A stretch of DNA of 64,000 bases. Origin: an uncultured Alphaproteobacteria bacterium (GTDB taxonomy: Bacteria; Pseudomonadota; Alphaproteobacteria; HIMB59; GCA-002718135). Both the position numbers and the translations under genes were made by a program. This document shows positions 3,236 to 60,616 of the stretch, piece after piece; positions within the stretch are counted from its first letter, which is position 1, and each line of letters opens with the position of its first letter. Below the pieces are notes generated by a model, which did no database searches, was not told where the DNA came from, and saw only the letters and a program-made list of their open reading frames with translations. Where the stretch lies: positions 1 through 64,000 of the forward strand of contig CACLJX010000006.1 of the NCBI GenBank assembly GCA_902607435.1. The letters are read 5' to 3'.

Positions 3236-3311
<76 letters not shown>

Positions 3312-41165: not shown

Positions 41166-43145
41166 ATGATTTGCTTTGAATATCTTTCTTTATCAACTTT
41201 TCTTACTTGTTTATTTAAATTTAATATTTTAAAAAAATTAGTAAGTATAAATTCAAATCCTATTTATTTTATTGATTCATCATTAAGTGTTAGGTGGTTT
41301 GTAATACCGATTATCACTTTTTTTGGTAAAAAAATAAATAAATTAAATTTCAAACTAATAGAAATCACAGATAATAATGGAGAACTCATTAGATATAGAA
41401 TAGCCCGTTTTGATTTGTTTGAGGTTCAGAAAAAAATTACTGATAGCATTTCTCATAAAGAATTATATCACCAAAGCTGGAATCAGGGCTCCATTCTTGA
41501 TTATATTAATAAAGCCATTGTTGGAGGGAGTATTTTGGAATCAGAATCTGTTAGCAGGGTTTTATTTCTAATTGAAGTTCTTAATTGGCATATGAAAAAG
41601 ATAAATTGTGAACAAGCATTATTAATTATTAATAAAAGACCATGGTTAGATATTTATAAAAAAATAGCTAAAAATTATCAAATTGTATTGTTAGGATTTC
41701 ACAATATTCAATTTAAACTTTCTGATATTCATAATTTTGTTCGTAATCATCAATGGCTATATGGAGTTTTAAAAAACCTAAAATATAATAAAAAAATAAA
41801 AATGGAACGAAATTCAAAATCATCTTTAAATATGCTTTATTTAGATGGCAGAAGAGATATAAATATTGAAAAAAATGGAAATCATTCAGATTTTTTTTGG
41901 CAATATAATTCTCATTTTCCAATAGAAAAAATTATATACAAATATTATTCGAGTGCTGAAAAATTAATCCTAAACCAATATGGAGTACTTCCAATTCCTG
42001 AAGGTGTAATAATAGATAAAAATTGTAAACGAAATTATGTAAAACCAAAAAAAAATTACTCAAATGTATTCCAAAAAGAGTCAAAGATACTCCAATTAAT
42101 ACTTGCTTCATATGATCTTGATCGATTTTATTGGAGTGCATTTTTTAAATTTTATAATGTAAAAGTATTTTTAAGTTGGAATAAATATACTCATGATCAT
42201 ATTGCATTATTAGATGCTATAAATGATAATGACGGTATACTTGCAATCTGGCAAATGGCTTTTGATGGTTTTGAATTTGCTGAATGTGCACTGAATGCTG
42301 ATATTTATTTTTGTTTTTCTCGTTTTAGTCTGGATCTAGAAAAAAAATTAAAGTCAAAGATTAAATATAATATTATTACAGGTTATCCTAAAGATTATGC
42401 TGGTCCGCTTTTAAAGGAGCGTGCCAGCAATTTAAGAAAAAAATTAAAAGCAAATGGAGCTAAAAAAATTATTTTTGTAATTGATGAAAATTCAACTGAC
42501 GATTCAAGATGGCACACAGGACATGAAATTCAACGTGAAAACTATAGTTTTGTTCTTAATAAAGTATTGGAAACTTCTTGGCTGGGCGTTATTTTTAAAC
42601 CTAAAACTGCTAAAACATTAAGAAAAAGGCTTGGATCTGTTGCAGATCTTTTAACTAAGGCAGAAAAAACAGGTCGTTGTTTTATTTATGAGAAATCTGT
42701 TGGAGCTACTACAATAGCTTCACCTGTATTAGCAGGCTTAAGTTCAGATATTTGTATTCATGCACATCTTGGTTCAGGAACAGGAGCTGTAGAATGTGCG
42801 CTAGAAGGTTTACCAACATTGCTGATTGATCGTGAAGGTGCACCATTTTCAAAATTAAATGAACTACCTTTAGGTAAAGTTATTTTTAAAGATTGGACCA
42901 CAACAATTAAAGCTGTCATGGAGCATTTTGATACTCCTGGGGGAATTGATGGTTTTGGTGATTGGTCTAAAATTATTGATGATTTAGATCCTTTTAGAGA
43001 TGGCAAGGCCGCTTACAGAATGGGAACTTATCTTCACTGGCTTGTTCAAGGTTATAATCAAGGTTTAGATAAAAAAACTGCTTTGTTTCAGGCTGCAACA
43101 AGATATAAAAAAAAATGGGGAGAAGATAAAGTTATTACTACTTAA
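41166..43145 (+). CDS. Large putative glycosyltransferase (capsule/GT-B-like C-terminal half)
   Basis: 659 aa; C-terminal GVIFKPK...ICIHAHLGSGTGAVECALEGLPTLLIDREG resembles GT-B/capsule synthase donor region; N-terminal half not recognised. Confidence 0.5.
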   Translation: MICFEYLSLSTFLTCLFKFNILKKLVSINSNPIYFIDSSLSVRWFVIPIITFFGKKINKLNFKLIEITDNNGELIRYRIARFDLFEVQKKITDSISHKELYHQSWNQGSILDYINKAIVGGSILESESVSRVLFLIEVLNWHMKKINCEQALLIINKRPWLDIYKKIAKNYQIVLLGFHNIQFKLSDIHNFVRNHQWLYGVLKNLKYNKKIKMERNSKSSLNMLYLDGRRDINIEKNGNHSDFFWQYNSHFPIEKIIYKYYSSAEKLILNQYGVLPIPEGVIIDKNCKRNYVKPKKNYSNVFQKESKILQLILASYDLDRFYWSAFFKFYNVKVFLSWNKYTHDHIALLDAINDNDGILAIWQMAFDGFEFAECALNADIYFCFSRFSLDLEKKLKSKIKYNIITGYPKDYAGPLLKERASNLRKKLKANGAKKIIFVIDENSTDDSRWHTGHEIQRENYSFVLNKVLETSWLGVIFKPKTAKTLRKRLGSVADLLTKAEKTGRCFIYEKSVGATTIASPVLAGLSSDICIHAHLGSGTGAVECALEGLPTLLIDREGAPFSKLNELPLGKVIFKDWTTTIKAVMEHFDTPGGIDGFGDWSKIIDDLDPFRDGKAAYRMGTYLHWLVQGYNQGLDKKTALFQAATRYKKKWGEDKVITT

Positions 43146-44951: not shown

Positions 44952-46751
44952 ATGATGATCAAATTAATGAAAATCATGTACAAATTTGGCAAGATTCAAC
45001 AAGGTATAATGGATAATGTTTTAGATTTATGTCTTAATGGTAAGTTGGATCCTAAATTAAGTCCTGCATTTAATAGAATTGCTTTTAGCTTAAGACCTAA
45101 ATTTAATGAACTAATATCAGAAATATCTAAACCTTTTAAATCAAATATAGACTGGTGGATGCAAGGACCTTCTAGCAGACATACTGCTTCAAGTTCTTTT
45201 TTTCATTATTTTTGTTGTTTATATTTCATGAATGATTTGATCAAAAATAATCAATTATCATATGATAGTGTGTTAGTTGATTCGCAAGAGCTCTGTATTA
45301 TAATAAATAATATGTTGCATGATAATAAAATTATTAAATGTAAAGTTCAGTATGTAAAACCTCTTCTTTTAAAAATTATTATTAGAAAATATTTAAAAAT
45401 ACCAGCTTTATTTTGTAAAAAAATAGTACAGCAGATTATTGCTATACTTAGCAGAGAAGAAAGATTGAATCTTATTACAAGAAATAATTTAGTTTTAATT
45501 GATACATATATGATCGCAGGATACACGGATATTGATAGGTGGTATGGCACACTTTGGAATCATTTAAGTAACAGTTTAAAGTCTGAAACCTTTTTTATTC
45601 CAACTATTGTATCAACACCATTGAAAGCAATGATGTCAATTTATAAAGATTTGAGAACAAATAATCGTAATTTTTTAATAAGAGAAGATTATCTAAAAAT
45701 CTCTGATATTTTTTTTGCATTTCAATATAAGAATAGACTAAAAAAAATAAATATTCGGTCAGTTAAAGTTTTGGGTTATGAAATATCAAACATCATACAG
45801 TATGAGTTGAAAAATTATCGAGATGTATCAACTATTATTGAATCTTTCTTAACTTATCGATTTATAAAGCGATTAAAGGAAAGCGGTATTACTGTGCGAT
45901 TAGCTATTGATTGGTTTGAAGGTCAAGTAATAGACAAAGCTTGGAATTTTGGATTTAATAAATACTATCCTGCTACTAAAACTATTGGATACAGGGTATT
46001 TGAAAGTGATCCTTTTGATTTATGTTCTTATCCGATTTCAGTCGAACGAGAAGCAGGGGTGTTGCCAGATGTAATGGCAGTGCAAGGTGCCGCATCGAAA
46101 CAGAACGTTAGAGAGTTTTTGCCAGATTTGGATGTTATTGTAATACCTTCATTCAAGTCACAACATGTGTGGCAATATAATTTTAGCCAAAAAGATGAAC
46201 TAATCAGAACTGTACTTATCACACTACCTCTTTCTTTGTATTCATCCGAGAGGATATTTAATAAAGTTTTAAAAGTTTATGAAAAATTGCAAATATGCAG
46301 GGAAAAAATTCGTTTTGTAATCAAGCCTCATCCAGCTCAATTGTTTAATAAAATTATTTCTAACTTTCCTGAATTACCAAATGGGTTTTCTATTGCAAAA
46401 GAAAAATCATTACCAATATTACTACATAAAAGTCATTTACTTATCACTGAAGCTTCCAGCTCGTCTCTAGAGGCTTTGGCTTGTGGAATTCCAGTGATTA
46501 TTATAGAGGATGATTCTGGATTAACATTTGATTCTATACCAAAAAATATTTCAAAAGAAATTGTTCTTAAGGTAAAGACAACTGAACAGATTATTCATGC
46601 GATGCAGTATTTTTTTAATCAAACAACAGATAAGCTCAAATTAAGAAAAACTTTAGCTGAAAAAATTCGAGCAGATTATTTTGAACCAATTACTCAGGAT
46701 GGAATTGATAAATTTATGGATTTGGATAATAAAGAAAATAAAAATATTTAA
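44952..46751 (+). CDS. Large putative GT-B/capsule-type transferase
   Basis: 599 aa; C-terminal RFVIKPHPAQL...HLLITEASSSSLEALACGIPVIIIEDD resembles CDP-glycerol/capsule transferases; ATG at 45009 is an alternative start. Confidence 0.5.
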   Translation: MMIKLMKIMYKFGKIQQGIMDNVLDLCLNGKLDPKLSPAFNRIAFSLRPKFNELISEISKPFKSNIDWWMQGPSSRHTASSSFFHYFCCLYFMNDLIKNNQLSYDSVLVDSQELCIIINNMLHDNKIIKCKVQYVKPLLLKIIIRKYLKIPALFCKKIVQQIIAILSREERLNLITRNNLVLIDTYMIAGYTDIDRWYGTLWNHLSNSLKSETFFIPTIVSTPLKAMMSIYKDLRTNNRNFLIREDYLKISDIFFAFQYKNRLKKINIRSVKVLGYEISNIIQYELKNYRDVSTIIESFLTYRFIKRLKESGITVRLAIDWFEGQVIDKAWNFGFNKYYPATKTIGYRVFESDPFDLCSYPISVEREAGVLPDVMAVQGAASKQNVREFLPDLDVIVIPSFKSQHVWQYNFSQKDELIRTVLITLPLSLYSSERIFNKVLKVYEKLQICREKIRFVIKPHPAQLFNKIISNFPELPNGFSIAKEKSLPILLHKSHLLITEASSSSLEALACGIPVIIIEDDSGLTFDSIPKNISKEIVLKVKTTEQIIHAMQYFFNQTTDKLKLRKTLAEKIRADYFEPITQDGIDKFMDLDNKENKNI

Positions 46752-46754
46752 ATA

Positions 46755-47660
46755 ATGAATAAAATATACATGTGCGGAGTAGGAGGAATGCTTGGAGAAG
46801 CATTTTATAAACAATTTAAAAATGACTATATATTAAAATGTACTGATATTGATGTTAACGAAAGTTGGTTAACTTATTTAGATTTTCGAAATAGAGATGC
46901 TTATTATAAACAAGTAAACGAATTTAATCCTGATTATCTCTTTCATATTGGAGCTTATACTGATCTTGAATATTGTGAATTGCATGAGAAAGATACTTAT
47001 GAAACTAATACAAAGTCAGTTGAATATGCAGTCAAAATTTCCAATGATTTAAATATTCCTTTATTGTACATTAGTACAGCTGGAATATTTAAAGGAAACA
47101 AAGATGTTTATGATGAATCAGATAAGCCTGAACCACTTGGACACTATGGAAAATCCAAATATTTGGGTGAAATATTTGTTCAAGATCATTCTAATAAATA
47201 TCTTATTTGTCGCGCTGGTTGGATGATGGGAGCAGGAGAAAAAAAAGATAAAAAATTTATTCAAAAAATGATTAAGCAGATCTCTGATGGCAATAATATC
47301 CTTAATGTTGTTAATGATAAATTAGGAACCCCAACTTATACTCAAGATTTTGCTAAGAATGTAAAACTGCTTATAGAAAAAAACCAAACTGGTTTATTCA
47401 ATATGGTCTGTGGAGGATTCACAAGTCGTTTTGAAGTATGCAAAGAATTGATAAAATTACTAAACTTAGAAGATGAAATTGAGATAAGGCAAGTATCATC
47501 TGATTATTTTGCAAAAGAATATTTTGCAGAACGCCCAGATTGTGAAAGACTTGTTAACAAACATTTGGATGATCTGAGCTTGAATATCATGCGAGATTGG
47601 CGGATAACTCTAAAAGAATATCTTAATGATTATTATAGAGAATTGATTTATAAAACCTAA
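46755..47660 (+). CDS. RfbD/RmlD-like sugar-nucleotide reductase (SDR)
   Basis: IYMCGVGGMLGEAFYKQF, HIGAYTDLEYCELHEKDTYETNTKSVEYAVKIS, YISTAGIFKGNKDVYDES, HYGKSKYLGEIFV. Confidence 0.83.
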   Translation: MNKIYMCGVGGMLGEAFYKQFKNDYILKCTDIDVNESWLTYLDFRNRDAYYKQVNEFNPDYLFHIGAYTDLEYCELHEKDTYETNTKSVEYAVKISNDLNIPLLYISTAGIFKGNKDVYDESDKPEPLGHYGKSKYLGEIFVQDHSNKYLICRAGWMMGAGEKKDKKFIQKMIKQISDGNNILNVVNDKLGTPTYTQDFAKNVKLLIEKNQTGLFNMVCGGFTSRFEVCKELIKLLNLEDEIEIRQVSSDYFAKEYFAERPDCERLVNKHLDDLSLNIMRDWRITLKEYLNDYYRELIYKT

Positions 47661-47753
47661 TTAGCAAGTCTACATGTTGGAAAATTCGGAAAAATTATTG
47701 ATCTTAATATCAAAAGTACTTGAAGTTAGTAAGAGTGAAATTAATGACAATAC
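47550..47753 (+). repeat. Left copy of a 204-bp direct repeat
   Basis: Aligned by eye to 57115-57318 at constant offset 9565; one mismatch (47558 C vs 57123 T). Confidence 0.95.
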
Positions 47754-47805
47754 TGCATGCTTAAACGATTACTTTTTTTTTATTTTTTTAAGATTATATA
47801 AATAA
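47674..47805 (+). pseudogene. Truncated acyl carrier protein gene (first 27 codons, then unrelated sequence to a stop)
   Basis: MLENSEKLLILISKVLEVSKSEINDNT identical to the start of the ACP at 57239, then diverges (ACLNDYFFFIFLRLYK*) at the repeat end. Confidence 0.9.
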
Positions 47806-47822
47806 ATTTAAAAAAAATATTA

Positions 47823-48875
47823 TTATCTTAACAATGAAATTATTATTTTCATTTTATTTATTGGTCCAGTAGTTATTCTTATATATTTTTCATAACCTTT
47901 AATGGAAATGTCTTTGCCTATTAAAATTTTATGTTTATTTAACTTTTTTAAAAAATTAATTTTTTTGATATTGGGTTTTATAAAAATAAAGTTAGCATGA
48001 GAGTCAATAAAATCTATACTATTAAATTTAAGAAATTTTATTATTAATTCTTTACCTTTTTTATTTTCACTAATATATTTTTTTCTTATATTGGGATTAT
48101 CAAGTAAAATCTCCGCGGCTAATATTCCAAGTGAATTTACTTCATACATTGGTTTAAAAGAATATAAAAGCTTAGCCAATGATAATTCTGCAATTAAATA
48201 TCCTACTCTTAACCCAGCAATACCATAAGATTTAGAAAAAGTTCTACTAATAATAATATTCGGAAATTTAGATAATAATGTTAGCGCAGTTTGTTTAGAG
48301 AATCCATAATATGCTTCATCGACTAAAACAGGAATTTTATAATTATTTGCCTTTTTTACAATTTTTTCCATATTTGATGACGATATTAATGTTCCTGTTG
48401 GACTATTTGGATTGGCTATTATTATTAATGAAACGTCATCATCTATTTTATTTAAAAAATGATCAATATTAATTTTTAAATCTTTATTGTAGTTAATTTT
48501 AACTTGTCTGGCACAAAAAAGTTTACAATACACTTCAATCATACCAAAAGTAGGATTAAGTGTTATAACTTTATCTTTAGGTGAAACAAATAAATCAAAA
48601 CAATTTTTTATTGCAGCATCAGAACCTGCGGTTATTACTAATTGTTCTATTTTAATGTTATGATAATTAGCTAACTTGTTATAAAGATTTTTAGTTTCAG
48701 GATATGAATTTAAATAAAAGGAATTTATTTTTTTAAAAAATTTTTTTATAAACTCATCTTCAAATGACGATATTCTTTCATTTTTGTCTAGTCTTAATTT
48801 TTTATATCTAGATAAAAACTCTCCTCTTAGTCTTAAATTTTGACTCACCCATTTTTTATGTTTAATCAAAGTCAA
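47823..48875 (-). CDS. HisC-like class I/II PLP aminotransferase
   Basis: RLDKNER, VITAGSDAAIKNCFDLFVSPKDKVITLNPTFGM, IANPNSPTG, ISRTFSKSYGIAGLRVGYL. Confidence 0.88.
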   Translation of the reverse strand: MTLIKHKKWVSQNLRLRGEFLSRYKKLRLDKNERISSFEDEFIKKFFKKINSFYLNSYPETKNLYNKLANYHNIKIEQLVITAGSDAAIKNCFDLFVSPKDKVITLNPTFGMIEVYCKLFCARQVKINYNKDLKINIDHFLNKIDDDVSLIIIANPNSPTGTLISSSNMEKIVKKANNYKIPVLVDEAYYGFSKQTALTLLSKFPNIIISRTFSKSYGIAGLRVGYLIAELSLAKLLYSFKPMYEVNSLGILAAEILLDNPNIRKKYISENKKGKELIIKFLKFNSIDFIDSHANFIFIKPNIKKINFLKKLNKHKILIGKDISIKGYEKYIRITTGPINKMKIIISLLR

Positions 48876-48917
48876 AGAATTACAATCTTATATTATTTAA
48901 ATAAATTAAAATTTTTT

Positions 48918-49760
48918 TCATTTTTTTAACCAAATTTGATTATAGCTTGTATTTAATTTTGTATTATTGAAAATTGGTGAGTGATACTTTCCTGTGAAAA
49001 TAAAACCAGATTTTTCTAAATAAGATTTGCATTCTGATTTTTGTTTCTCAAATTTGTCATCAATTTCAACTAATAAGGATTTTGTTTTTCTTAAAGTTTC
49101 TGATCCGCCTTTCAAAATTAAATGCTCGATACCATCTACATCAATTTTAATATAATCAGGATGAGATATTTTCATTAAATTAATTACTTCATCCATAGAA
49201 ATTCCTAATGTTGAATAATTAAATGTTTTTTTAATATTTGAACCATCATGAGTATATTCATGTTCAAAAGTAGATAAAGCTCCACCCAAATCTGTTGAAG
49301 TCATATTAAATTTACTTAAAGTCAGTTTTTCTGTTAGAGCTATCGGAATCATTATAATTTTTTCAGATAAATTATTTAAATATATATTTCTTGCCAATAG
49401 TTCTAAATTAAATACTGAAGGTTCAAATGAAAAAACTTTACAGTCCCTATGTTTTGCAGCATAACAACTATATAGACCAATATTTGCACCTATATCCCAA
49501 AAAATACTATTTTTCTCAAAACTATCAATCCATTCAAGTGTTTCAGGTTCTTTATTTGAAAATGTTTTAACACGAAATCTATTTATATTGTTCGGTACTG
49601 TAAATTTCAAATCAATCTCATTATGTTGTATTTGAATAACATGATTCATAGCGTTATTTATCAAAATCTCATTCAACCGCATTCCTATTTTTGAATTTAA
49701 TAAAAAAGCAAAGAATGTCTTTAAAAAATTTCTAATTAAGTCTTTAATTTTTTGTTTCAT
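48918..49760 (-). CDS. FkbM-family methyltransferase
   Basis: FWDIGANIGLYSCYAAKHRDCKVFSFEPSVFNLELLARNIYLN; DYIKIDVDGIEHLILKGGSETL. Confidence 0.88.
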   Translation of the reverse strand: MKQKIKDLIRNFLKTFFAFLLNSKIGMRLNEILINNAMNHVIQIQHNEIDLKFTVPNNINRFRVKTFSNKEPETLEWIDSFEKNSIFWDIGANIGLYSCYAAKHRDCKVFSFEPSVFNLELLARNIYLNNLSEKIIMIPIALTEKLTLSKFNMTSTDLGGALSTFEHEYTHDGSNIKKTFNYSTLGISMDEVINLMKISHPDYIKIDVDGIEHLILKGGSETLRKTKSLLVEIDDKFEKQKSECKSYLEKSGFIFTGKYHSPIFNNTKLNTSYNQIWLKK

Positions 49761-49793
49761 TAATTAAATTTATATAGAAATTTGCACAGAACA

Positions 49794-50987
49794 TTAAACC
49801 ACAGAACATTTGTTGCAAGGAGATATAGATTTTCGAATATTTTTTAGATGTTTTTGACGAATTTTTTCATAATTATTTGATCTCCACAATTTTGATAAAT
49901 TGTCATTCAATATATTTCCTGTAGATAAAAAAGATTTATAATCAACATCACATGGATTAATTTTTCCATCCCACCAAACGAACATACGCCTCCATAAATC
50001 AGAACAAGGGGTGTTGATTGAATTTATCGGTGAACCATAAACATTTTCCCATGGTATATAATTTACAAAAGCTACTTGATCAACAAGTCCACCCCAATAA
50101 CTTTCCATATCATCAAGTTTTTGTTTTTCATTTATTTTAACACCTGAAACTCTTGTTATTATATTTGAATCAGGATAATGAGTTTCCTTAATTTTTTTAA
50201 ATTTTTCAATATTTGAGAGAATTTTACTTAATTTCCCATTAACTCTTAGTTTACTATATAATTCATCATCAGCTGCATCAGCTGAAAAAACTACAGTTTT
50301 AATTCCACTTTTCAATATAGCATGAGATTTTTCCTCACTTAATATGGAAGCATTAGTATTAATTTTTAAATTCAGAAATTTACCACAAGTATATTCTAGC
50401 ATTTTATTTATTTCTGGACACATTAAAGGTTCTCCCCGAGAAGCTATAGAAATAAACTCAATGACACCTTCGGCTTGGTCAATAATTTTTTTAAACATAT
50501 CTAAAGTCATATGTCCCATAAAGCCATTTGAACGTTTATTAAAAAAATTATCAGTTTGGTAACAAAAAACACATCTGTAATTACATATTGATGTTGGCTC
50601 AATTTGTAAAAATGGCGGATAGTCATCAATTATTTTTTTCAATGGATATATTTCATATCTATATCTATGTACCAGATATCTTGGAATATCATCATTTTTT
50701 AAAGTTTGTATTTCTTTAACAACATTTGGTGATAATTTGAATCTTTCATTGCTAGGAGAATTATTTTTGTATAAATCCTTTTTTACATTTAAAATAATAT
50801 CTTTTTCTTTATGATTTAGATCAATTAATTTATCTTCATTAAGTAATCCTTCAATTCTATTTAATAGTTTTTTTTCATTTTCTAGATTACGATCTACGAA
50901 TTTAAAAAAACTATTATGTTTATTGTAAATATTATTTTTTTCTGTCTTCATTGTTTTAAAAACCATTTTTAGTAAGCCAATATTCAA
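49794..50987 (-). CDS. Radical SAM/SPASM domain protein
   Basis: EPTSICNYRCVFCYQT (CxxxCxxC); GEPLMCPEINKML; C-terminal Cys cluster NPCDVDYKS...CNKCSVV. Confidence 0.88.
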   Translation of the reverse strand: MNIGLLKMVFKTMKTEKNNIYNKHNSFFKFVDRNLENEKKLLNRIEGLLNEDKLIDLNHKEKDIILNVKKDLYKNNSPSNERFKLSPNVVKEIQTLKNDDIPRYLVHRYRYEIYPLKKIIDDYPPFLQIEPTSICNYRCVFCYQTDNFFNKRSNGFMGHMTLDMFKKIIDQAEGVIEFISIASRGEPLMCPEINKMLEYTCGKFLNLKINTNASILSEEKSHAILKSGIKTVVFSADAADDELYSKLRVNGKLSKILSNIEKFKKIKETHYPDSNIITRVSGVKINEKQKLDDMESYWGGLVDQVAFVNYIPWENVYGSPINSINTPCSDLWRRMFVWWDGKINPCDVDYKSFLSTGNILNDNLSKLWRSNNYEKIRQKHLKNIRKSISPCNKCSVV

Positions 50988-51690
50988 CTAATGGAATTTG
51001 CCATTCATAATCAACATCACATCCTCCCCATGAAAATATAGGTGCTATCTTATTTCCCATCCATTTTTGAGGGAGCATACCTTTTTCAAGATTTTCTAGA
51101 CATCTTGGTCTTACTACTGATACTGACATATCAGCAAAATAAACATCTCCTTGTGAATCTCGGTCACAATTTAAACTGCGAGGATCTCCAAATGTTTCAA
51201 AAGGAACAAAAGGCTTCAAAACCCCCTCTGAATTGATTTTTCTAGCTCTAAGGGGACTCCACATATTGTATACAGATGTTGTTACAGCTGAATCCAATGA
51301 AGGATCTTTTTTTAATATTTCTATACCTTCATCTATAAGTTTAGAAGTTATGGTAGGGCTATTTGCAAATAGCAGAACTATTAGTTCAATTTTATTATTT
51401 TTTTCAGAAAGTTTCTTTTTAATTTCAAAATAACCATGTTCAAACACATGATCTCCTAAAGCCTTGTTAGTAGTTAATTTTTTTGGTCTTTCTATTATTT
51501 CAATATTATAAGATTTACTTATTCTTTTTATTTTTGGACAATCAGTTGAAACAAAAATATTATTTATATATTTAGAGTTTGAAGCTGCGATAAGAGGATA
51601 TGCACATAATGGCCTACCTAAAACAGGAAAAGTATTTTTACCTGGAAAACCAGAGCTACCAGCCCTTCCAATCATCAACGCACATATCAT
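50956..51690 (-). CDS. Cytidylyltransferase-like (third NeuA/KdsB-type copy)
   Basis: ALMIGRAGSSGFPGKNTFPVLGRPLCAYPLIAASNSKYINNIFVSTDCPKI; ANSPTIT. Confidence 0.75.
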   Translation of the reverse strand: MICALMIGRAGSSGFPGKNTFPVLGRPLCAYPLIAASNSKYINNIFVSTDCPKIKRISKSYNIEIIERPKKLTTNKALGDHVFEHGYFEIKKKLSEKNNKIELIVLLFANSPTITSKLIDEGIEILKKDPSLDSAVTTSVYNMWSPLRARKINSEGVLKPFVPFETFGDPRSLNCDRDSQGDVYFADMSVSVVRPRCLENLEKGMLPQKWMGNKIAPIFSWGGCDVDYEWQIPLVEYWLTKNGF

Positions 51691-51920
51691 TAATTATATA
51701 CTCAACATTTTTTCTTTTTATAAATTACTCTAATATAGATGCAAATCAAAAATTATATATATATCAAAAAAAATCCGAAAAACTAAAGAACAATTAATAT
51801 AAGTATAATTTATGGCATAATTGTTTTAAGATAAAGAATATTATAATAGCACGATTAAGTATAATTATTTTTTTGTTTTATTATATTTAATAATAAAAAT
51901 AATAAGTTTAAATAATTTAG

Positions 51921-52094
51921 ACACTAAAATATTTATTCGCTCCAGAGAATATTAAGAGAAATAATGGTCTTTATAAAGATTCAGAAGATTTATTTAGAGA
52001 AAAAGGATTTTGTGTAATTAAAAATTTTATTGATATAAAAAATCTAGAATATTTCCAAATCTTTATCTTGAATATATTTAAAGTTATACTTTAA
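51921..52094 (+). pseudogene. Possible remnant of an oxygenase-type N-terminus, no start codon
   Basis: Open frame TLKYLFAPENIKRNNGLYKDSEDLFREKGFCVIKNFIDIKNLEYFQIFILNIFKVIL*; REKGFCVIKNFID resembles the N-terminus of phytanoyl-CoA/2OG dioxygenases; no ATG and overlaps an opposite-strand ORF. Confidence 0.35.
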
Positions 52095-52475
52095 AGCTAA
52101 TTCTGCTTTATGAAGTTCTATGCCCATATCGGCAGCATGTTGCAATGTTGAAATAAATTTTTTTTTTATAAGCGTGTTAACTATTTCTATAGCATTTTTA
52201 CCTGTAATTTCTACGATCATATCGTGAATGGGATCATTGCCTAATTTAGAAAATAAACAATAACCTACTCTTATTAGGTTTGATTTCTTATCAAGCTTAA
52301 TTAAAAAATATCCTTTGGGGTCCATAACCCAGTCTTTTATTTTGTCATATTTAGCAGGTATTTTTTTTTTAATATTTTTTTTGATTTTCCACCATTTTCC
52401 TCTTATTAAATTGCTATTTTTATTTATTTTCATTTTAAAAATACATATACCAATAAAGAAAAAATTAAATATCAA
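52044..52475 (-). CDS. DUF4346-like protein of unknown function
   Basis: DWVMDPKGYFLIKLDKKSNLIRVGYC...LQHAADMGIELHKAELALKYNFKYIQD; HAAxxGxEL-KAE-AL-YxQD pattern; start may be internal Met. Confidence 0.55.
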   Translation of the reverse strand: MIFNFFFIGICIFKMKINKNSNLIRGKWWKIKKNIKKKIPAKYDKIKDWVMDPKGYFLIKLDKKSNLIRVGYCLFSKLGNDPIHDMIVEITGKNAIEIVNTLIKKKFISTLQHAADMGIELHKAELALKYNFKYIQDKDLEIF

Positions 52476-52544
52476 TTATACAATCTAATTTTGAATACAA
52501 ATTAATATATTTAATAAATATATTGAAAATCATCAAATTATATT

Positions 52545-52660
52545 TTAATTGATTATGTAAATTAGACTTATGGGAAATAATGTGAGATTCATCAACTGTA
52601 CCCGCAACGGTAATAAACATAAGGTTTGAAGTCCGAATGCCTATAAATTCTTTTAAGTTC
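52545..52660 (+). promoter_or_regulatory. Cobalamin (B12) riboswitch
   Basis: Core GGGAA-N-GTGAGATTCATC-AACTGTACCCGCAACGGTAA...GAAGTCCGAATGCC matches the B12-box layout; 5' of a membrane protein and a BtuB-like receptor. Exact ends approximate. Confidence 0.88.
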
Positions 52661-52672
52661 GAGGAATAAATT

Positions 52673-53197
52673 ATGAAAGAAAACTTTTTTTATCTAGTAT
52701 TTTTTGGGATTATTCTTGCGTTTTCTAGAATAATTCCTCATCCACCAAATTTCACGCCAATATTAGCATCCGCTATTATGGCACCTATGCTTATAAAAGA
52801 TAGATGGTTTGGTATAGCAATACCTATTGTAGCAATGTTTATAAGCGATATTATAATTGGTTTTTACTCTTATCAATTTGTAATTTATTCTTCTATTTTT
52901 GCAATAGCATTGGTTTCTCCTATGCGTAAAAACTATACCAGGTTAGGAATTATGACTGTGGTTGCTAGTGTATGGTTCTTTCTTACAACAAACTTTGCTG
53001 AATGGATTATATGGGATTATTATCCCAAAACATTCGAAGGTTTAATTACTTGTTATACTCTAGCAATACCATTTTTTAAAAATACTCTTATTAGTACCTG
53101 CTTATTTACAGGCCTATTAATATTTTCAATAAAATATTTAGAGCAATTAAATAAAAAAACTAGTTATTTAATTTCTAATTTATTAGCAAGAATCTAA
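52673..53197 (+). CDS. Small integral membrane protein (possible ECF-like/DUF6580 vitamin uptake component)
   Basis: RIIPHPPNFTPILASAIMAPMLIKDRWFGIAIPIVAMFISDIIIGFYSYQFVIYSSI; five or so TM stretches; directly after the B12 riboswitch. Confidence 0.7.
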   Translation: MKENFFYLVFFGIILAFSRIIPHPPNFTPILASAIMAPMLIKDRWFGIAIPIVAMFISDIIIGFYSYQFVIYSSIFAIALVSPMRKNYTRLGIMTVVASVWFFLTTNFAEWIIWDYYPKTFEGLITCYTLAIPFFKNTLISTCLFTGLLIFSIKYLEQLNKKTSYLISNLLARI

Positions 53198-53268
53198 ATA
53201 TCTTAAAAATTTTTAAGATATATATAACTAAAAAATTAGATTAGCATTTTTAATAAGATCATAAGTAA

Positions 53269-55302
53269 ATGAATTTTATAAAATACAGTTTTTTTTATAT
53301 TTTAATTTTATTTAATACAAGCATAGTAGCCTTAGATGTAACAGTAAACATTCCTATTTACGAACCTTTGTCTAAAACAAGTTCTACTTCCATTACAGGA
53401 TCATCTAATATTATTATTGATCGAAAAGATTTAGAAAAATATGAAAACACTTCAATTCACGATGTTCTTGATTTAGAGAGTGGCATAAAAAATCGAAGTA
53501 TATACGGATCAAATTCATCCGGAAGTAAATCAACTTTGGATATCAGGGGTATGGGGGCGCAAGCAAAAAGTAATGTGCTGCTATTAATTAATGGTCAGCG
53601 TTTAAATAATATAGATATGTCTGAAATTGATTTTCCTAGTATACCGAAGGAAAGTATAGATAGAATAGAAATTTTTAAGGGAAATGCAGCATCCGTACTT
53701 TACGGTGATGGAGCAATAGGGGGGGCGATAAATATAATTACAAATCCAGATATTAATAAAGAGTCAATAAATGAAGTATTGGTAAAAAATGGTACGTTTA
53801 ACAATAGAGAGCTTGTTTGGAATTATTCCCAAAAATTAGACAAATATTCTTTTAACACATATTTTAATCATACAGAAACAGATGGATATAGAGATGAAAA
53901 TGAACAACAACAAAATAATATAATATCTGAACTGAAATATTCTGGTAAAAATGGTGATCATTTTTTTACTATTAGTTTTAGTGAACAAATCATGAGTACG
54001 CCAAGTGATCGAAGTCAAGATCAACTTTTCAATGATAGAAGAGGTTCTGATACTCCTGATGATTATATTAATAGTGAAGGAGGATCTATTCTTTATGGTA
54101 CGGATTATAAATTAAGTGATCATATAACTTTTATTTTAAACAGTAGTTTTAGACTAAAAGATTCATATTCAGATTTACAATCTACTAGTAGTCCATCTTA
54201 CAGCGATTCATCTATGACGAATTATCAGTTTACACCAAGAATTAAACATGTAACAAATTTTTTTGGTAAGATTTTAAAATCAAACTATGGTCTTGATCTT
54301 CAATATGCAGACTATAAATCTTATCGAAAAGAAACTAAAAATGCCATTCCTTTGCATGTGTATGATGCTTGGCAAGCAACTCAATCTATATATGCTCAAC
54401 AGTCTATTTATCTAACAAATACTACAACTTTAGGAACAGGATTAAGATTACAAAGAAATCTTATTGCAATAGGAGATCATTTAGATGTCAACGCACCAGA
54501 TTATGCTGGTTGGCAAGAAGAGCATAAAACTCTTTCTGATCAAGAAACGAATTATGCTGTTAACATTGGTTTAGATCACGCCGTTAATAAAAAATCAATT
54601 ATTTATGGAAGATTAGGAAATGGATTTAGGTATCCTAATATTGATGATAGGATAGGGGGGTCTGGCGGCACATCTTTAGAGCTGAATACTCAAACAACTA
54701 AAGATTTTGAAATAGGTTCAAAATTTGCATCTAATAATTTTTCTTCTAATGTTTCGACATATATTATTGAAGGTAAAAATGAGCTTGCATACGATACTGA
54801 TGCTTTTGAAAATATTAATATAAATTCAACTAGAAGATACGGTATTGAATTAAATATAAAAAATAAAATATCAGATAAATTAAATCTAACGAATAATTTT
54901 ACATTTGCAAAAGCTAAGTATATTTCAGGAGATCAAGGAACTTATGCAACAGATTTTAAAGGTAATGATGTTCCTCTTGTTCCTCAATACTCCATAGATA
55001 CTAGCCTTGAATGGAAGATTTCAGAATTTACGAAAATTATTCCAACAATAAAGTATCAAGATGATATGAGAATGGAAAGTGATGATGAAAATTTTCAAGA
55101 AACTAAAGTACCCAGTTATGTTAAAGTGAATATGAGTATTACTTCTAAATTGGGTAAATTTTTTTCTACATTATCCATCAATAATATTTTTAATGAAAAG
55201 TATCATAATTATGCTGTTGCAAGTTCTAGCACACAAGGTGCATATAATGCTTACCCAGAACCTGGAAGAGAAATTATTTTCGGTGTAAGAATGAAATTTT
55301 AA
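53269..55302 (+). CDS. TonB-dependent outer-membrane receptor, BtuB-like
   Basis: Plug VLDLESGIKNRSIYGSNSSGSKSTLDIRGMGAQAKSNVLLLINGQRLNNIDMSEIDFPSIPKESIDRIEIFKGNAASVLYGDGAIGGAINIIT; C-terminal barrel ends ...REIIFGVRMKF. Confidence 0.93.
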   Translation: MNFIKYSFFYILILFNTSIVALDVTVNIPIYEPLSKTSSTSITGSSNIIIDRKDLEKYENTSIHDVLDLESGIKNRSIYGSNSSGSKSTLDIRGMGAQAKSNVLLLINGQRLNNIDMSEIDFPSIPKESIDRIEIFKGNAASVLYGDGAIGGAINIITNPDINKESINEVLVKNGTFNNRELVWNYSQKLDKYSFNTYFNHTETDGYRDENEQQQNNIISELKYSGKNGDHFFTISFSEQIMSTPSDRSQDQLFNDRRGSDTPDDYINSEGGSILYGTDYKLSDHITFILNSSFRLKDSYSDLQSTSSPSYSDSSMTNYQFTPRIKHVTNFFGKILKSNYGLDLQYADYKSYRKETKNAIPLHVYDAWQATQSIYAQQSIYLTNTTTLGTGLRLQRNLIAIGDHLDVNAPDYAGWQEEHKTLSDQETNYAVNIGLDHAVNKKSIIYGRLGNGFRYPNIDDRIGGSGGTSLELNTQTTKDFEIGSKFASNNFSSNVSTYIIEGKNELAYDTDAFENININSTRRYGIELNIKNKISDKLNLTNNFTFAKAKYISGDQGTYATDFKGNDVPLVPQYSIDTSLEWKISEFTKIIPTIKYQDDMRMESDDENFQETKVPSYVKVNMSITSKLGKFFSTLSINNIFNEKYHNYAVASSSTQGAYNAYPEPGREIIFGVRMKF

Positions 55303-55547
55303 TAATTAGTATTTTTTTATCCAGGTTTTCGTAACACTATAACTTTATTGAAGATTATATTCAGATAATTTTATAAAGAGATTACAATATTTAACAGGAT
55401 TACCAGCTAAATTATATTAATATAACAATAATATGATTTATTTTCTATTCTATCTTTTTGACCTAATATATAATACTTTGTATAAATAGTATTTTATATG
55501 TTAATCTTACAAGATTTAGCTAATAATTTTTTATATCAAAATAATAA

Positions 55548-57077
55548 ATGAACACTTTTGTATCTCATAATAATCGCAAGATTTTACTAATGGAACCACC
55601 TTTTTATAGACTCTATCATGATCAGTTTTGTTTAGTTAAATATCCCTTAGCTTTGGGCTATCTTTCCGGTTCTATTATTAAAAATACGAATTGGTCTGTT
55701 CAAACATACAACTCAGACTTTAATGTTAAAAAAAGATATTTTGTAACTGAAACTGATTATTTAACTGGAAAAGGGTTTAAACGCTATCTGTCTTGTCTCA
55801 AAGACCATTCGCTACCTATATGGGATGAAGTTAGGAACACAATACGAGAATTTAAACCAAGTGTTCTAGGAATAACATTAAAATCTCAAAATTTTACTTC
55901 AGCTACAATAGTTGCAAAATTAGCAAAAGAAATTAATCCAGATATTAAAGTAGTAATTGGGGGAGCTCACGCGACTATGAATGGTTCAAGTGTCTTTAAT
56001 TGTGAAAATATTGATGTTTCATGTATAGGTGAAGGAGAAATCACAATAACAGAATTATTAAAAGCTTATGAGAACAATACTCCATTACAGAATGTTAATG
56101 GAATAATATTCAGAGATAAAAATAATCAAATTACACAAACATCTCCTAGAGCATATATAGAAGATCTTGATTCACTTGAATTTCCTTTGACAAACGCCCC
56201 AACAGTATTCAAAGATTTTGAAAAATACCCTAAAGAAGCATTTTCTTATGTGTTTGCATCCAGAGGGTGTCCATATGCTTGTACTTTTTGTGAATCGAAA
56301 TCAATGTGGACTAGAAAAGTTAGATACAGATCTCCTGAAAATATTATTAAAGAAATTAAAGAAATGTATAAATTTGGTCTCAGAAGAGTGCAGTTTGATG
56401 ATGATACTTTCGGAGTGAGTAAAAAAAATATTAAAGCAATTAATGAGCTTATGCATAATGAATTACCTGATGTTACTTACGCATGTGAGACTGTTGTGCA
56501 ACTTGCGAAAGATGAAAACGTTGTCAAAGACATGAGATACGGAGGATGTACTTCCACATTTGTTGGGATTGAATCTGGTAATAATGAAATGTTGAAAAAA
56601 ATAAAAAAAACGCAAACAACAGATGAATGTATTCAGGCAATTAGTAATTTAAAAAAAAATGGTATAGAAGCACATGCATTTATAATGGTTGGTTTTCCAG
56701 AGGAAACAGAGGAAACTTTTCAACAAACGTTAGATTTTATTCCAAAGCTTGCACCAGATAATGTAATATTTAGTATTTTTACACCTTATCCTGGATCTGA
56801 ACTTTATTATGTATGTAAAGATATGGGTATTATTGAAAAAGAATTTGATGTATCATTGTACAATCATCAAAGTCCTTTAAACTGTTTTACAAAAAATATA
56901 GCTCCAGAACGATTTTATGAATTAAGACGTAAAGCAGTTAAATTTATTGACAATTACAATAGAAAAGCAAAATTTAAACGAGGAATTAAATCATTACAAA
57001 ATATTGGTATAAAGGCAACTTGGAAAAAAGCCTTTTCATATTTGTATGGAATTTTCATTCGTTCTACTACTGCTTAG
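55548..57077 (+). CDS. B12-binding domain radical SAM protein
   Basis: N-term KILLMEPPF...YPLALGYLSGSI, VVIGGAHATMNG, CIGEGEITITELL; radical SAM FASRGCPYACTFCESKSMW. Confidence 0.92.
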   Translation: MNTFVSHNNRKILLMEPPFYRLYHDQFCLVKYPLALGYLSGSIIKNTNWSVQTYNSDFNVKKRYFVTETDYLTGKGFKRYLSCLKDHSLPIWDEVRNTIREFKPSVLGITLKSQNFTSATIVAKLAKEINPDIKVVIGGAHATMNGSSVFNCENIDVSCIGEGEITITELLKAYENNTPLQNVNGIIFRDKNNQITQTSPRAYIEDLDSLEFPLTNAPTVFKDFEKYPKEAFSYVFASRGCPYACTFCESKSMWTRKVRYRSPENIIKEIKEMYKFGLRRVQFDDDTFGVSKKNIKAINELMHNELPDVTYACETVVQLAKDENVVKDMRYGGCTSTFVGIESGNNEMLKKIKKTQTTDECIQAISNLKKNGIEAHAFIMVGFPEETEETFQQTLDFIPKLAPDNVIFSIFTPYPGSELYYVCKDMGIIEKEFDVSLYNHQSPLNCFTKNIAPERFYELRRKAVKFIDNYNRKAKFKRGIKSLQNIGIKATWKKAFSYLYGIFIRSTTA

Positions 57078-57114
57078 TTTAATATTGTAATAAATCATTT
57101 TTTTATGGAAATGG

Positions 57115-57225
57115 CTTGTTAATAAACATTTGGATGATCTGAGCTTGAATATCATGCGAGATTGGCGGATAACTCTAAAAGAATATCTTAATGATTATTA
57201 TAGAGAATTGATTTATAAAACCTAA
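57115..57225 (+). pseudogene. 3' fragment of the RmlD-like SDR gene (46755-47660)
   Basis: Encodes the same C-terminus ...HLDDLSLNIMRDWRITLKEYLNDYYRELIYKT* as the intact gene, no start region. Confidence 0.9.
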
Positions 57226-57318
57226 TTAGCAAGTCTACATGTTGGAAAATTCGGAAAAATTATTGATCTTAATATCAAAAGTACTTGAAGTTAGTAAGAG
57301 TGAAATTAATGACAATAC
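57115..57318 (+). repeat. Right copy of the 204-bp direct repeat
   Basis: Aligned to 47550-47753 at offset 9565 with one mismatch; identity ends at the same base where the left-copy ACP reading diverges. Confidence 0.95.
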
Positions 57319-57484
57319 GTCTCCTCAGAATATTAGAAATTGGGATTCATTTAATACTTTAAAAATGATTATTGCTATAGAAAATGAATTCAACATTAAA
57401 TTACCACTTGAGGAAGTTGTTGTAATTAAGACTGTAAAAGATATTAAAGCTCTATTACTAGCAAAAGGGGTGTCACTTAAATAA
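57239..57484 (+). CDS. Acyl carrier protein
   Basis: 81 aa: ...VSKSEINDNTSPQNIRNWDSFNTLKMIIAIENEFNIKLP; WDSFNTL carries the candidate phosphopantetheine Ser. Confidence 0.88.
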   Translation: MLENSEKLLILISKVLEVSKSEINDNTSPQNIRNWDSFNTLKMIIAIENEFNIKLPLEEVVVIKTVKDIKALLLAKGVSLK

Positions 57485-57554: not shown

Positions 57555-59492
57555 ATGATAGACTTAGAATATTACAAACAAGCACTGTTAATTAGGAAAA
57601 CAGAGGACAAATTTCTTGAGTTGTTTAGTCAAGGAAAAATGAACGGCACAGTCCATACTTGTAATGGACAAGAATTTTCTGGCATTGCTTTTTGCAAATC
57701 TTTAAGACAAGACGATTTCATATATTCCAATCACAGATGTCATGGTCACTATATAGCTCATACTAATGATGTCGCTGGATTAATTGCTGAGTTAATGGGT
57801 AAAAAATCAGGAATCTGTGGTGGAATAGGATCAAGTCAACATTTATGCAATAAAAATTTTTATTCTAATGGAGTTCAAGGTGGAATTTTACCTGTGGCTG
57901 CAGGCATGGCGATTGTAAAAAAAATGCAAAAAAAAAATGAAATAGGTATTGCTTTTATAGGAGATGGAACTTTAGGAGAAGGAGTTGTTTATGAAACTTT
58001 TAATCTCTGTTCACTTTTAGACATACCTTTGTTGATTGTTTGTGAGAATAATGGCTATGCACAATCAACAGCACAAAAGGATTTCTTAGCAGGCAACATA
58101 TTGCCGAGAGTAGAAGCCTTTGGCATAAAAACATACCATTCCAATACTTGGGAATTAAAAGAATTATTTAGTGAAGCAGAACAATCTATAAACTATGTTA
58201 GAAAAAACTGTAAGCCTGCATTTCATCTTGTAGATACTTATCGCTTAAATCCTCATTCAAAAAATGATGACAATCGGAGTCAAAGTGAATTGGATCAATA
58301 TAAAAAAAAGGATCCTCTTAATCTATTTATGAAGAACAATACTTCAGCATATAATGATATGTTGCTATCTGTAAATAATCTTATTAACCAAATTGTAGTA
58401 AAACTAGAAAAAGAAGAAGAACTTTCTCTAGAACACTACAATATTGACAAAATAAATCATGTAATTAATAAATACGAACCTCTTGAAGAAATTAATCAAA
58501 GAGTTATTAGTCGCATTAATCTTTTTTTTCATGAGACTATTACTAAAGATAAATCTGTCATATTTATTGGCGAAGATGTTTTATCTCCATATGGAGGAGC
58601 ATTTAAAGCTGCAGAAAAATTGTCGGAAAAATTTCCAAATAATGTAATTACTACACCATTAAGTGAACATTCTATCACAGGGCTTTCAAATGGTATGGCC
58701 TTGGGTGGATATAAACCTTATTTAGAGATTATGTTCGGTGATTTCATTACTCTTTGTATGGATCAAATTATTAATCATGCCTCAAAATTTCATCATATGT
58801 ATAATAAAAAAATGAAATGTCCTGTTGTTATTAGGACTCCTATGGGTGGTGGTAGAGGATACGGACCTACACATTCACAAACACTTGATAAATTTTTGAC
58901 TGGGATAGACAATATAAAAGTAGTAGCACTTAACAGTTTTTTTGATCCAAAACTTATTTATGAGGAAATTTATCAAAATGAAAATCATCCAATTATAGTT
59001 ATTGAAAATAAAATTGATTATGGAAGAATAGTAGGCGATAAGAAGTTAAGTAATTATATTTTAGAGCGTTCGATTACAAACTATCCTATAGTAAAGTGTA
59101 CTCCTAAAAAAGAAGAGGCTACTCTTACGATTGTAAGTTATGGCGGTATATCTTCAGATGTGTTTGAAAATTTAATCAATATTTTCAATGAAACAGAACT
59201 TTTACCAGAACTTATTGTGTTATCTAAGATAAGTCCTTTAGATGTTCAACCAATATTAAATTCTGTTGAAAAAACTAGAAATATAATAGTTGTTGAAGAG
59301 GGCAGCATACCTTTTGGTATTGGAGCAGAGATTTTATCCTCAGTAATTGAAAATATCGGAGTAAATAAAATGAATATCATGTTTAGAATTGGTTCTATTT
59401 CTTTACCTATACCTTCAGCACGTTCGCTAGAAGAACATGTGCTTCCTAATAAAACAATTCTTGATAAAATTGTTCGGAGAATAAATGTATGA
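57555..59492 (+). CDS. 2-oxoacid dehydrogenase E1, alpha-beta fusion
   Basis: GDGTLGEGVVYETFNLCSLLDIPLLIVCENNGYAQST (TPP motif); beta half IFIGEDVLSPYGGAFKAAEKLSEKFPNNVITTPLSEHSITGLSNGMALGGYKPYLEIMFGDF. Confidence 0.93.
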   Translation: MIDLEYYKQALLIRKTEDKFLELFSQGKMNGTVHTCNGQEFSGIAFCKSLRQDDFIYSNHRCHGHYIAHTNDVAGLIAELMGKKSGICGGIGSSQHLCNKNFYSNGVQGGILPVAAGMAIVKKMQKKNEIGIAFIGDGTLGEGVVYETFNLCSLLDIPLLIVCENNGYAQSTAQKDFLAGNILPRVEAFGIKTYHSNTWELKELFSEAEQSINYVRKNCKPAFHLVDTYRLNPHSKNDDNRSQSELDQYKKKDPLNLFMKNNTSAYNDMLLSVNNLINQIVVKLEKEEELSLEHYNIDKINHVINKYEPLEEINQRVISRINLFFHETITKDKSVIFIGEDVLSPYGGAFKAAEKLSEKFPNNVITTPLSEHSITGLSNGMALGGYKPYLEIMFGDFITLCMDQIINHASKFHHMYNKKMKCPVVIRTPMGGGRGYGPTHSQTLDKFLTGIDNIKVVALNSFFDPKLIYEEIYQNENHPIIVIENKIDYGRIVGDKKLSNYILERSITNYPIVKCTPKKEEATLTIVSYGGISSDVFENLINIFNETELLPELIVLSKISPLDVQPILNSVEKTRNIIVVEEGSIPFGIGAEILSSVIENIGVNKMNIMFRIGSISLPIPSARSLEEHVLPNKTILDKIVRRINV

Positions 59493-60616
59493 CCATATTA
59501 CATGAGTTATTAGCACCAAAACAAAATGCTGATGAAATATTATTAGTAAGTAATATTTATTTTAAAAATAAGGATAGAATCTATAAAAATGATGAACTTA
59601 TTGAATTAGATACATCAAAAACAGCAATTGTTATTGAATCACCAATTGATGGCTATGTGGAATATTTGGTAGATAAAGGCTCTTCGATAAATATAGGAGA
59701 AATTATACTACGAATTCACGATAAACCTGATTATATAGATAATAAAGAATCAGTAACCACTGAAAATTATAATAAATCAAAACCTAAGAGTGCGCAGATA
59801 ATCTCAAAAAAGGCGCAGGAGTATATTGATACACACAAGATTGATATTTCAGATATTCAAAAAAAATTTATACAACTAGAAGATCTAATAAAGGTGTCTT
59901 CAAAAGATGATGTTGAGAAAACAAAGTCTCAAGATAAATCTCTTTCTAAATCAATATTGTTCTCACTTGAATCAGATATTGAGGTTAGAAAAAAACCACT
60001 AATACTTTCAAAAAAAATAGAAATACAGGCTCTATCTAATGTTCAGTCAGCTGGTATGGTAAGTACAATTTTTTACAATATAGATGATTGCGATTTTCCA
60101 GAAAGTGAAAACTTAATCTTAAATTCTGCTGGATCAATTTTAACTATTATTACTTTTGAGGTTTCAAGATTGTTAAAAAAATACCCAATGCTTAATGCAT
60201 ATTATGATAATGATTTCATTATGGAATATGTTGATATAAATGTTGGTATAGCACTTGACATTGATGATGGTTTAAAAGTTTATACTCTTAGGAAGAGTGA
60301 TACTCTGGCATTTAAGAAAATAGAATATGAGATATCACAAGGAATATATCATTATATGCGTAAAAGTTTAACTACTGACCATATCAAAGGTTCTACATTT
60401 ACAATTACTGACCTATCTTCTTTAGGAGTAGATCGCTTTATACCTTTAATCAATTATAAACAATCTGCGGTTTTAGGAATTTCTGCCTTTGATAATAAAT
60501 TAAAAAGATTTACTTTGAGTCTTTCTTTTGATCATAGGGTAACAGAAGGTAAAATTGCAAGCAAATTTCTTTCTGAATTATCATCTTGTGTTAAGAAGTA
60601 TAATAAAAAAAAATGA
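59489..60616 (+). CDS. 2-oxoacid dehydrogenase E2-like acyltransferase (lipoyl, subunit-binding and catalytic regions)
   Basis: ELDTSKTAIVIESPIDGYVEYLVDKGSSINIGEIILRI (lipoyl-like); SKKAQEYIDTHKIDISDI (PSBD-like); LSLSFDHRVTEGKIASKFLSEL. Confidence 0.85.
   Translation: MTILHELLAPKQNADEILLVSNIYFKNKDRIYKNDELIELDTSKTAIVIESPIDGYVEYLVDKGSSINIGEIILRIHDKPDYIDNKESVTTENYNKSKPKSAQIISKKAQEYIDTHKIDISDIQKKFIQLEDLIKVSSKDDVEKTKSQDKSLSKSILFSLESDIEVRKKPLILSKKIEIQALSNVQSAGMVSTIFYNIDDCDFPESENLILNSAGSILTIITFEVSRLLKKYPMLNAYYDNDFIMEYVDINVGIALDIDDGLKVYTLRKSDTLAFKKIEYEISQGIYHYMRKSLTTDHIKGSTFTITDLSSLGVDRFIPLINYKQSAVLGISAFDNKLKRFTLSLSFDHRVTEGKIASKFLSELSSCVKKYNKKK

Follow-up and report, generated by a model that had tools for sequence, protein, structure and literature searches.

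A 9.36-kb block of surface-glycan and B12 genes between 204-bp direct repeats in an alphaproteobacterial glycan island: a probable additive integration

How does a block 9.36 kb long come to lie between two almost identical copies of a junction that joins the end of one gene to the start of the next, and can it leave again? The question arises from the 64-kb stretch of DNA analysed here (the window), for which the first-pass annotation had claimed a near-identical 204-bp repeat. Direct alignment confirmed that 47550-47753 and 57115-57318 form a 204-bp direct repeat whose copies differ at one position only, C47558/T57123, a synonymous change in the SDR reading frame (AAC/AAT, Asn). Identity is exact over the 195 bp of 47559-47753 and 57124-57318, and the bases at 47550-47557 (CTTGTTAA) are likewise matched in the right copy; a repeat search of the window returned the pair as 209 nt at 99% with a spacing of 9565. 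The repeat copies and the genes flanking the insert are as follows.

46755-47660, plus strand: SDR, RmlD-like (dTDP-4-dehydrorhamnose reductase family; Pfam RmlD_sub_bind, E 5e-51), intact, the last complete gene before the repeat
47550-47753, plus strand: left repeat copy, with the SDR 3' end and the first 26 2/3 codons of the acyl carrier protein (ACP) gene
47754-57114: unique 9.36-kb segment between the repeats
57115-57318, plus strand: right repeat copy, with a fossil SDR tail and the start of the intact ACP gene
57239-57484, plus strand: ACP, intact (Pfam PP-binding, E 8.5e-6)
57555-59492, plus strand: fused E1 alpha-beta 2-oxoacid dehydrogenase component, with relatives of up to 59% identity in other phyla
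59489-60616, plus strand: E2 acyltransferase with a lipoyl domain

Within the window this is the only repeat of at least 24 bp, and no other direct repeat exceeds 57 bp in a 482-kb sample of this genome (the whole of contig C6 plus stretches from 12 others). At 31 bp or more, the sample otherwise contains a short tandem run in C2 (maximum 57 bp), a tandem of 33 bp in C5 and a 39-bp tRNA-like repeat in C10. BLAST located just two copies of the repeat region in the whole assembly, a 1.5-Mb draft in 37 contigs (84% complete) of a small AT-rich bacterial genome. A repeat of such length cannot be due to chance. The limited size of the genome, its low G+C and its genes would suit a streamlined marine alphaproteobacterium of the HIMB59/AEGEAN-169 type.

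The draft state of the assembly and the near-identity of the copies over 204 bp are also what a strain mosaic would produce, in which one sub-population carries SDR-ACP-E1-E2, another carries the block beside a copy of the repeat, and the assembler crossed the shared 204 bp. Chimerism has been estimated at ~11-15% of marine metagenome-assembled genomes as against ~1% of single-cell genomes (PMC11247762), figures that would lend weight to this reading if the present genome were of the former kind. No overlaps that might give a clue to the assembler were found between the readable contig ends; both ends of the four short contigs C34-C37 read entirely as N (withheld or masked). Against a mosaic, the contig holds both new joints, at 47753/47754 and between the radical SAM gene end and the repeat start, so that each side of the repeat was presumably covered by reads in two contexts, in which case the duplicated junction has to be present somewhere in the sample. 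Flanks and insert are, moreover, continuous and similar in composition. We consider a mosaic unlikely, while giving it real weight.

The contents of the two copies indicate what was duplicated. The left copy comprises SDR codons 266-301 and the stop codon, followed by an ACP fragment (47674-47753, 26 2/3 codons) that runs on into a 43-codon dead-end ORF; the right copy opens within an SDR tail that lacks a start codon at its outset and leads into the complete 81-aa ACP. Because the SDR-stop/ACP-start junction is found in both copies, of which the left completes the SDR and the right the ACP, the two genes were once adjacent, and, judged from these copies, a single complete SDR-ACP adjacency must formerly have been present and been duplicated around the 9.36 kb. 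The former adjacency proposed in the first-pass annotation is thus supported by the identical junctions; taking away one repeat and the insert does read as an SDR-ACP-E1-E2 series, as had been stated, and the near-identity of the copies agrees with the suggestion of a recent event. The locus shows what single-crossover (Campbell-type) integration would leave: cargo between direct repeats as long as the shared homology, and a host site that is rebuilt once one repeat and the insert are removed.

The block itself contains the following features.

47823-48875, minus strand: PLP aminotransferase (HisC/CobD-like), 3'-most gene of a minus-strand glycan operon
48918-49760, minus strand: FkbM-type methyltransferase
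49794-50987, minus strand: radical SAM/SPASM protein, with relatives (46-49%) that adjoin a cytidylyltransferase at loci L076 and L077
50956-51690, minus strand: cytidylyltransferase, PseF-like, with relatives at 44-56%
52044-52475, minus strand: PterinBD-DUF4346 protein, with a 73% relative beside B12 uptake genes at locus L071
52558-52650, plus strand: AdoCbl-II (cobalamin) riboswitch (Rfam RF01689, 45.2 bits, above gathering)
52673-53197, plus strand: DUF6580 membrane protein, first gene 3' of the riboswitch
53269-55302, plus strand: TonB-dependent receptor, probably for cobalamin (BtuB-like plug), with relatives at up to 68%
55548-57077, plus strand: B12-binding radical SAM protein

The AdoCbl-II riboswitch bears out the earlier assignment of B12 genes to the insert. 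Weak Rfam matches to snoR20 and CRISPR-DR6 fell below gathering and were taken as chance. The DUF6580 gene is linked to the TonB receptor gene in four of five relatives, and its product may act at the inner membrane as a partner in this lineage's cobalamin uptake. The DUF4346 pterin-binding-domain protein adjoins B12 uptake genes in two genomes (52044-52475 here and L071:748-1131), and B12-binding radical SAM proteins 26-28% identical to that of 55548-57077 adjoin the cobalamin receptor in three relatives (L071, L072 and L073).

None of the insert sequence has a second copy in the window, and the receptor, radical SAM and cytidylyltransferase genes each occur once in the assembly, from which ~16% of the genome is missing. 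This bears on an origin within the chromosome that involves no foreign DNA, by tandem duplication from the SDR or by template switching, with later loss of the source copy; in the template-switch form 9.36 kb would have been copied, with a switch back ~200 bp upstream of the break. Such an origin has the merit that one event yields a direct repeat around the copied segment. It would also accommodate the position of the mismatch, 9 bp from the repeat edge, if that edge is an imperfect 8-nt microhomology (CTTGTTAA) followed by 195 exact bases; the chance that a lone mismatch falls so near a repeat end is ~9% (18 of 204 positions). The missing source copy counts against it, although part of the genome is lacking, and we hold an intrachromosomal origin to be improbable.

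Read from ORF translations, glycan-type genes extend from ~15.5 to ~77 kb of the 87-kb contig, which places the insert inside one large island of roughly 60 kb, and insert and flanks are continuous and alike in composition. Relatives of the B12 uptake receptor occur in five family members, in four of which they lie among glycan-type genes, and by this measure of gene neighbourhood the block is typical island material. By identity, too, its genes are of the family's own type (TonB receptor up to 68%, DUF4346 protein 73%, cytidylyltransferase 44-56%). Two proteins of the glycan island, of 659 aa (41166-43145) and 599 aa (44952-46751), gave no Pfam match at 0.001, and the latter has weak relatives (21-24%) at L072 and L073.

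Close homologues of the SDR (54-61% identity) are present in 12 genomes of the family, and an ACP gene adjoins it in none of the 12, so the SDR-ACP junction looked for in relatives was absent from every family member with a close SDR homologue. On this comparison the repeat seems to have arisen as a side effect of recombination and does not look like a conserved insertion site. The ACP had no match elsewhere in the order at E 1e-8. An alignment search with E1 across genome contigs yielded 80 loci, none with this SDR; an ACP lay directly upstream of E1 only at L055, by a simple ORF rule under which some may be missed. L055 belongs to a different family of the same class, and its ACP-E1-E2 order upholds the ACP-E1-E2 unit described earlier. 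In the 60 nearest genomes the closest proteins to E1 are ~33% identical, whereas the relatives of up to 59% identity belong to Bacteroidetes, Omnitrophota and other phyla, and the E1-E2 pair accordingly looks horizontally acquired. Fused E1 alpha-beta genes paired with E2 (L079-L158) are spread over many phyla, often beside genes of sugar-cluster type, and reach 59% identity to the present pair, a level at which none occurs in its own order; such pairs possibly make an acyl group for glycan decoration.

The absence of transposases and integrases from the insert, noted at first reading, held for all nine ORFs; where Pfam assigned these or their neighbours at all, it placed them in other families. 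Neither the insert nor its surroundings yielded a recombinase, a tRNA or an att-like feature, and the only tRNA in the window lies at 3236-3311. The repeat, at 204 bp of coding sequence, is unlike a short target-site duplication, nor is there an att site at a tRNA end. It begins and ends inside genes, at SDR codon 266 and ACP codon 27, as a randomly broken fragment would, and the insert ends just past the gene stops at 47823 (minus strand) and 57077 (plus strand). At the insert joints, neither terminator nor fold tests gave anything that exceeded shuffled sequences. What is directly observed is the repeat, the pair of partial gene copies, the genes of the block and the absence of a recombinase. 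A further reading takes the block as a dedicated cassette or integrative element that uses the 204-bp repeat as attachment sites and is reversed site-specifically. A clean flanking repeat, target genes left intact and self-contained operons would all suit such an element. The lack of any recombinase, transposase or tRNA, of a further repeat in the genome and of an SDR-ACP site in relatives speaks against it, as do repeat ends at arbitrary codons. Nothing at the locus points to a dedicated switch or mobile element, and we rate this reading as very improbable.

We favour, with moderate confidence, a genuine additive integration of fairly recent date, which took place within a presumably variable glycan island through one homologous crossover of RecA type. 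The donor would be a fragment of a related strain's island, carrying the 9.36-kb block together with ~200 bp of SDR-tail/ACP-head homology. This fragment would have entered the SDR-ACP site by a single RecA-type crossover in the shared homology, its other end being joined without homology; in the simplest form, circularisation by end joining would be followed by the single crossover. The outcome would be cargo between direct repeats as long as the shared homology, with zero host sequence lost, so that SDR and ACP-E1-E2 both remain intact. If the fragment ended at random in the SDR and came from an island in which the block had replaced ACP-E1-E2, one new joint only would be needed. That the block came from another island, that the crossover was one-sided, and in which order the two new joints formed, we infer.

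Several points count against the additive integration. Of the two new joints, one must already have been there in the donor or else have been made in a separate step. Neither donor, circle nor empty site was present among the sequences searched. The empty SDR-ACP site was absent from the genomes searched, in which the genus is represented by this genome alone, and a DNA search with the repeat and the SDR within the genus returned this genome only. In viral contigs there was no match to a 28-mer of the repeat, to the cytidylyltransferase or to a 38-mer of the empty site, although this last negative carries little weight, the 38-mer being off by one base (T for G after 47753). No donor molecule or circle with one repeat copy was found among the genomes and viral contigs searched, a set that includes no close relative. 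DprA (PF02481) and ComEC (PF03772) had no match in the 84%-complete genome, so DNA uptake by natural transformation is unsupported. The mostly vertical inheritance reported for O-chain clusters of Pelagibacterales (PMC11898729) also weighs against the integration.

As to whether the block can be lost, RecA-dependent deletion across 204 bp at a spacing of 9.4 kb is expected, and excision across the repeat that restores SDR-ACP-E1-E2 is plausible. Such loss would be one-way unless the excised circle survives; with no replication gene among its ORFs, the loss would normally be final. The further proposal of a reversible gain/loss cassette found no support: no empty site occurred in the genomes searched, and the repeat has no feature that would identify it as a recombination site. 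A population on/off module, in which B12 uptake, the B12-dependent radical SAM enzyme and the glycan genes are gained and lost jointly by RecA at one SDR-ACP site, is in our judgement very unlikely; if true, it would give a streamlined bacterium a slow means of switching its surface and its vitamin use back and forth, with no recombinase. If the joints are real, additive integration would mean that a glycan island has been caught shortly after gene gain, with the recombination scar nearly intact, and a natural example with readable joints would show that an island can gain genes without loss.

Compared with known systems, the locus shares direct repeats around an added block with additive genomic islands that carry an integrase and att repeats, but it has no recombinase and no tRNA, and its repeat is a coding junction with ends at arbitrary codons. 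It resembles homology-facilitated illegitimate recombination (HFIR), invoked for gene arrays of Vibrio cholerae type VI clusters (PMC5361080), in having one homologous and one non-homologous side. As a rule, HFIR removes host DNA of comparable length (about 1 kb) without creating a flanking repeat, whereas here nothing was lost; HFIR proper was rejected on the intact SDR and ACP, the 204-bp repeat and the lack of matches to competence genes, its usual setting. Marine replacement flexible genomic islands and O-chain clusters likewise show no IS or integrase at their boundaries, and their exchange has been attributed to homologous recombination (PMC4033161, PMC11898729); their boundaries are reported to be without clear hallmarks of illegitimate recombination (PMC4033161). 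They are mostly exchanged as whole clusters, however, while the present case is an addition within an island with a flanking duplication. The likeness to Campbell-type integration after E. coli conjugation lies in a direct duplication of partial genes that flanks the cargo, with host sequence kept. In a selection there for one-end-homology integration, meant to capture HFIR, 56 of 60 clones turned out instead to have the homologous locus duplicated; the duplications measured 109-950 bp in the 14 clones sequenced and were attributed by the authors to recircularised DNA that entered via a single crossover (PMC3240628). Those cases involved engineered plasmids under selection, whereas ours is inferred from one assembly; its 204-bp repeat falls within the E. 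coli range. The structure thus most likely fits ordinary one-sided recombination between related DNAs, adding an example of a mechanism already known.
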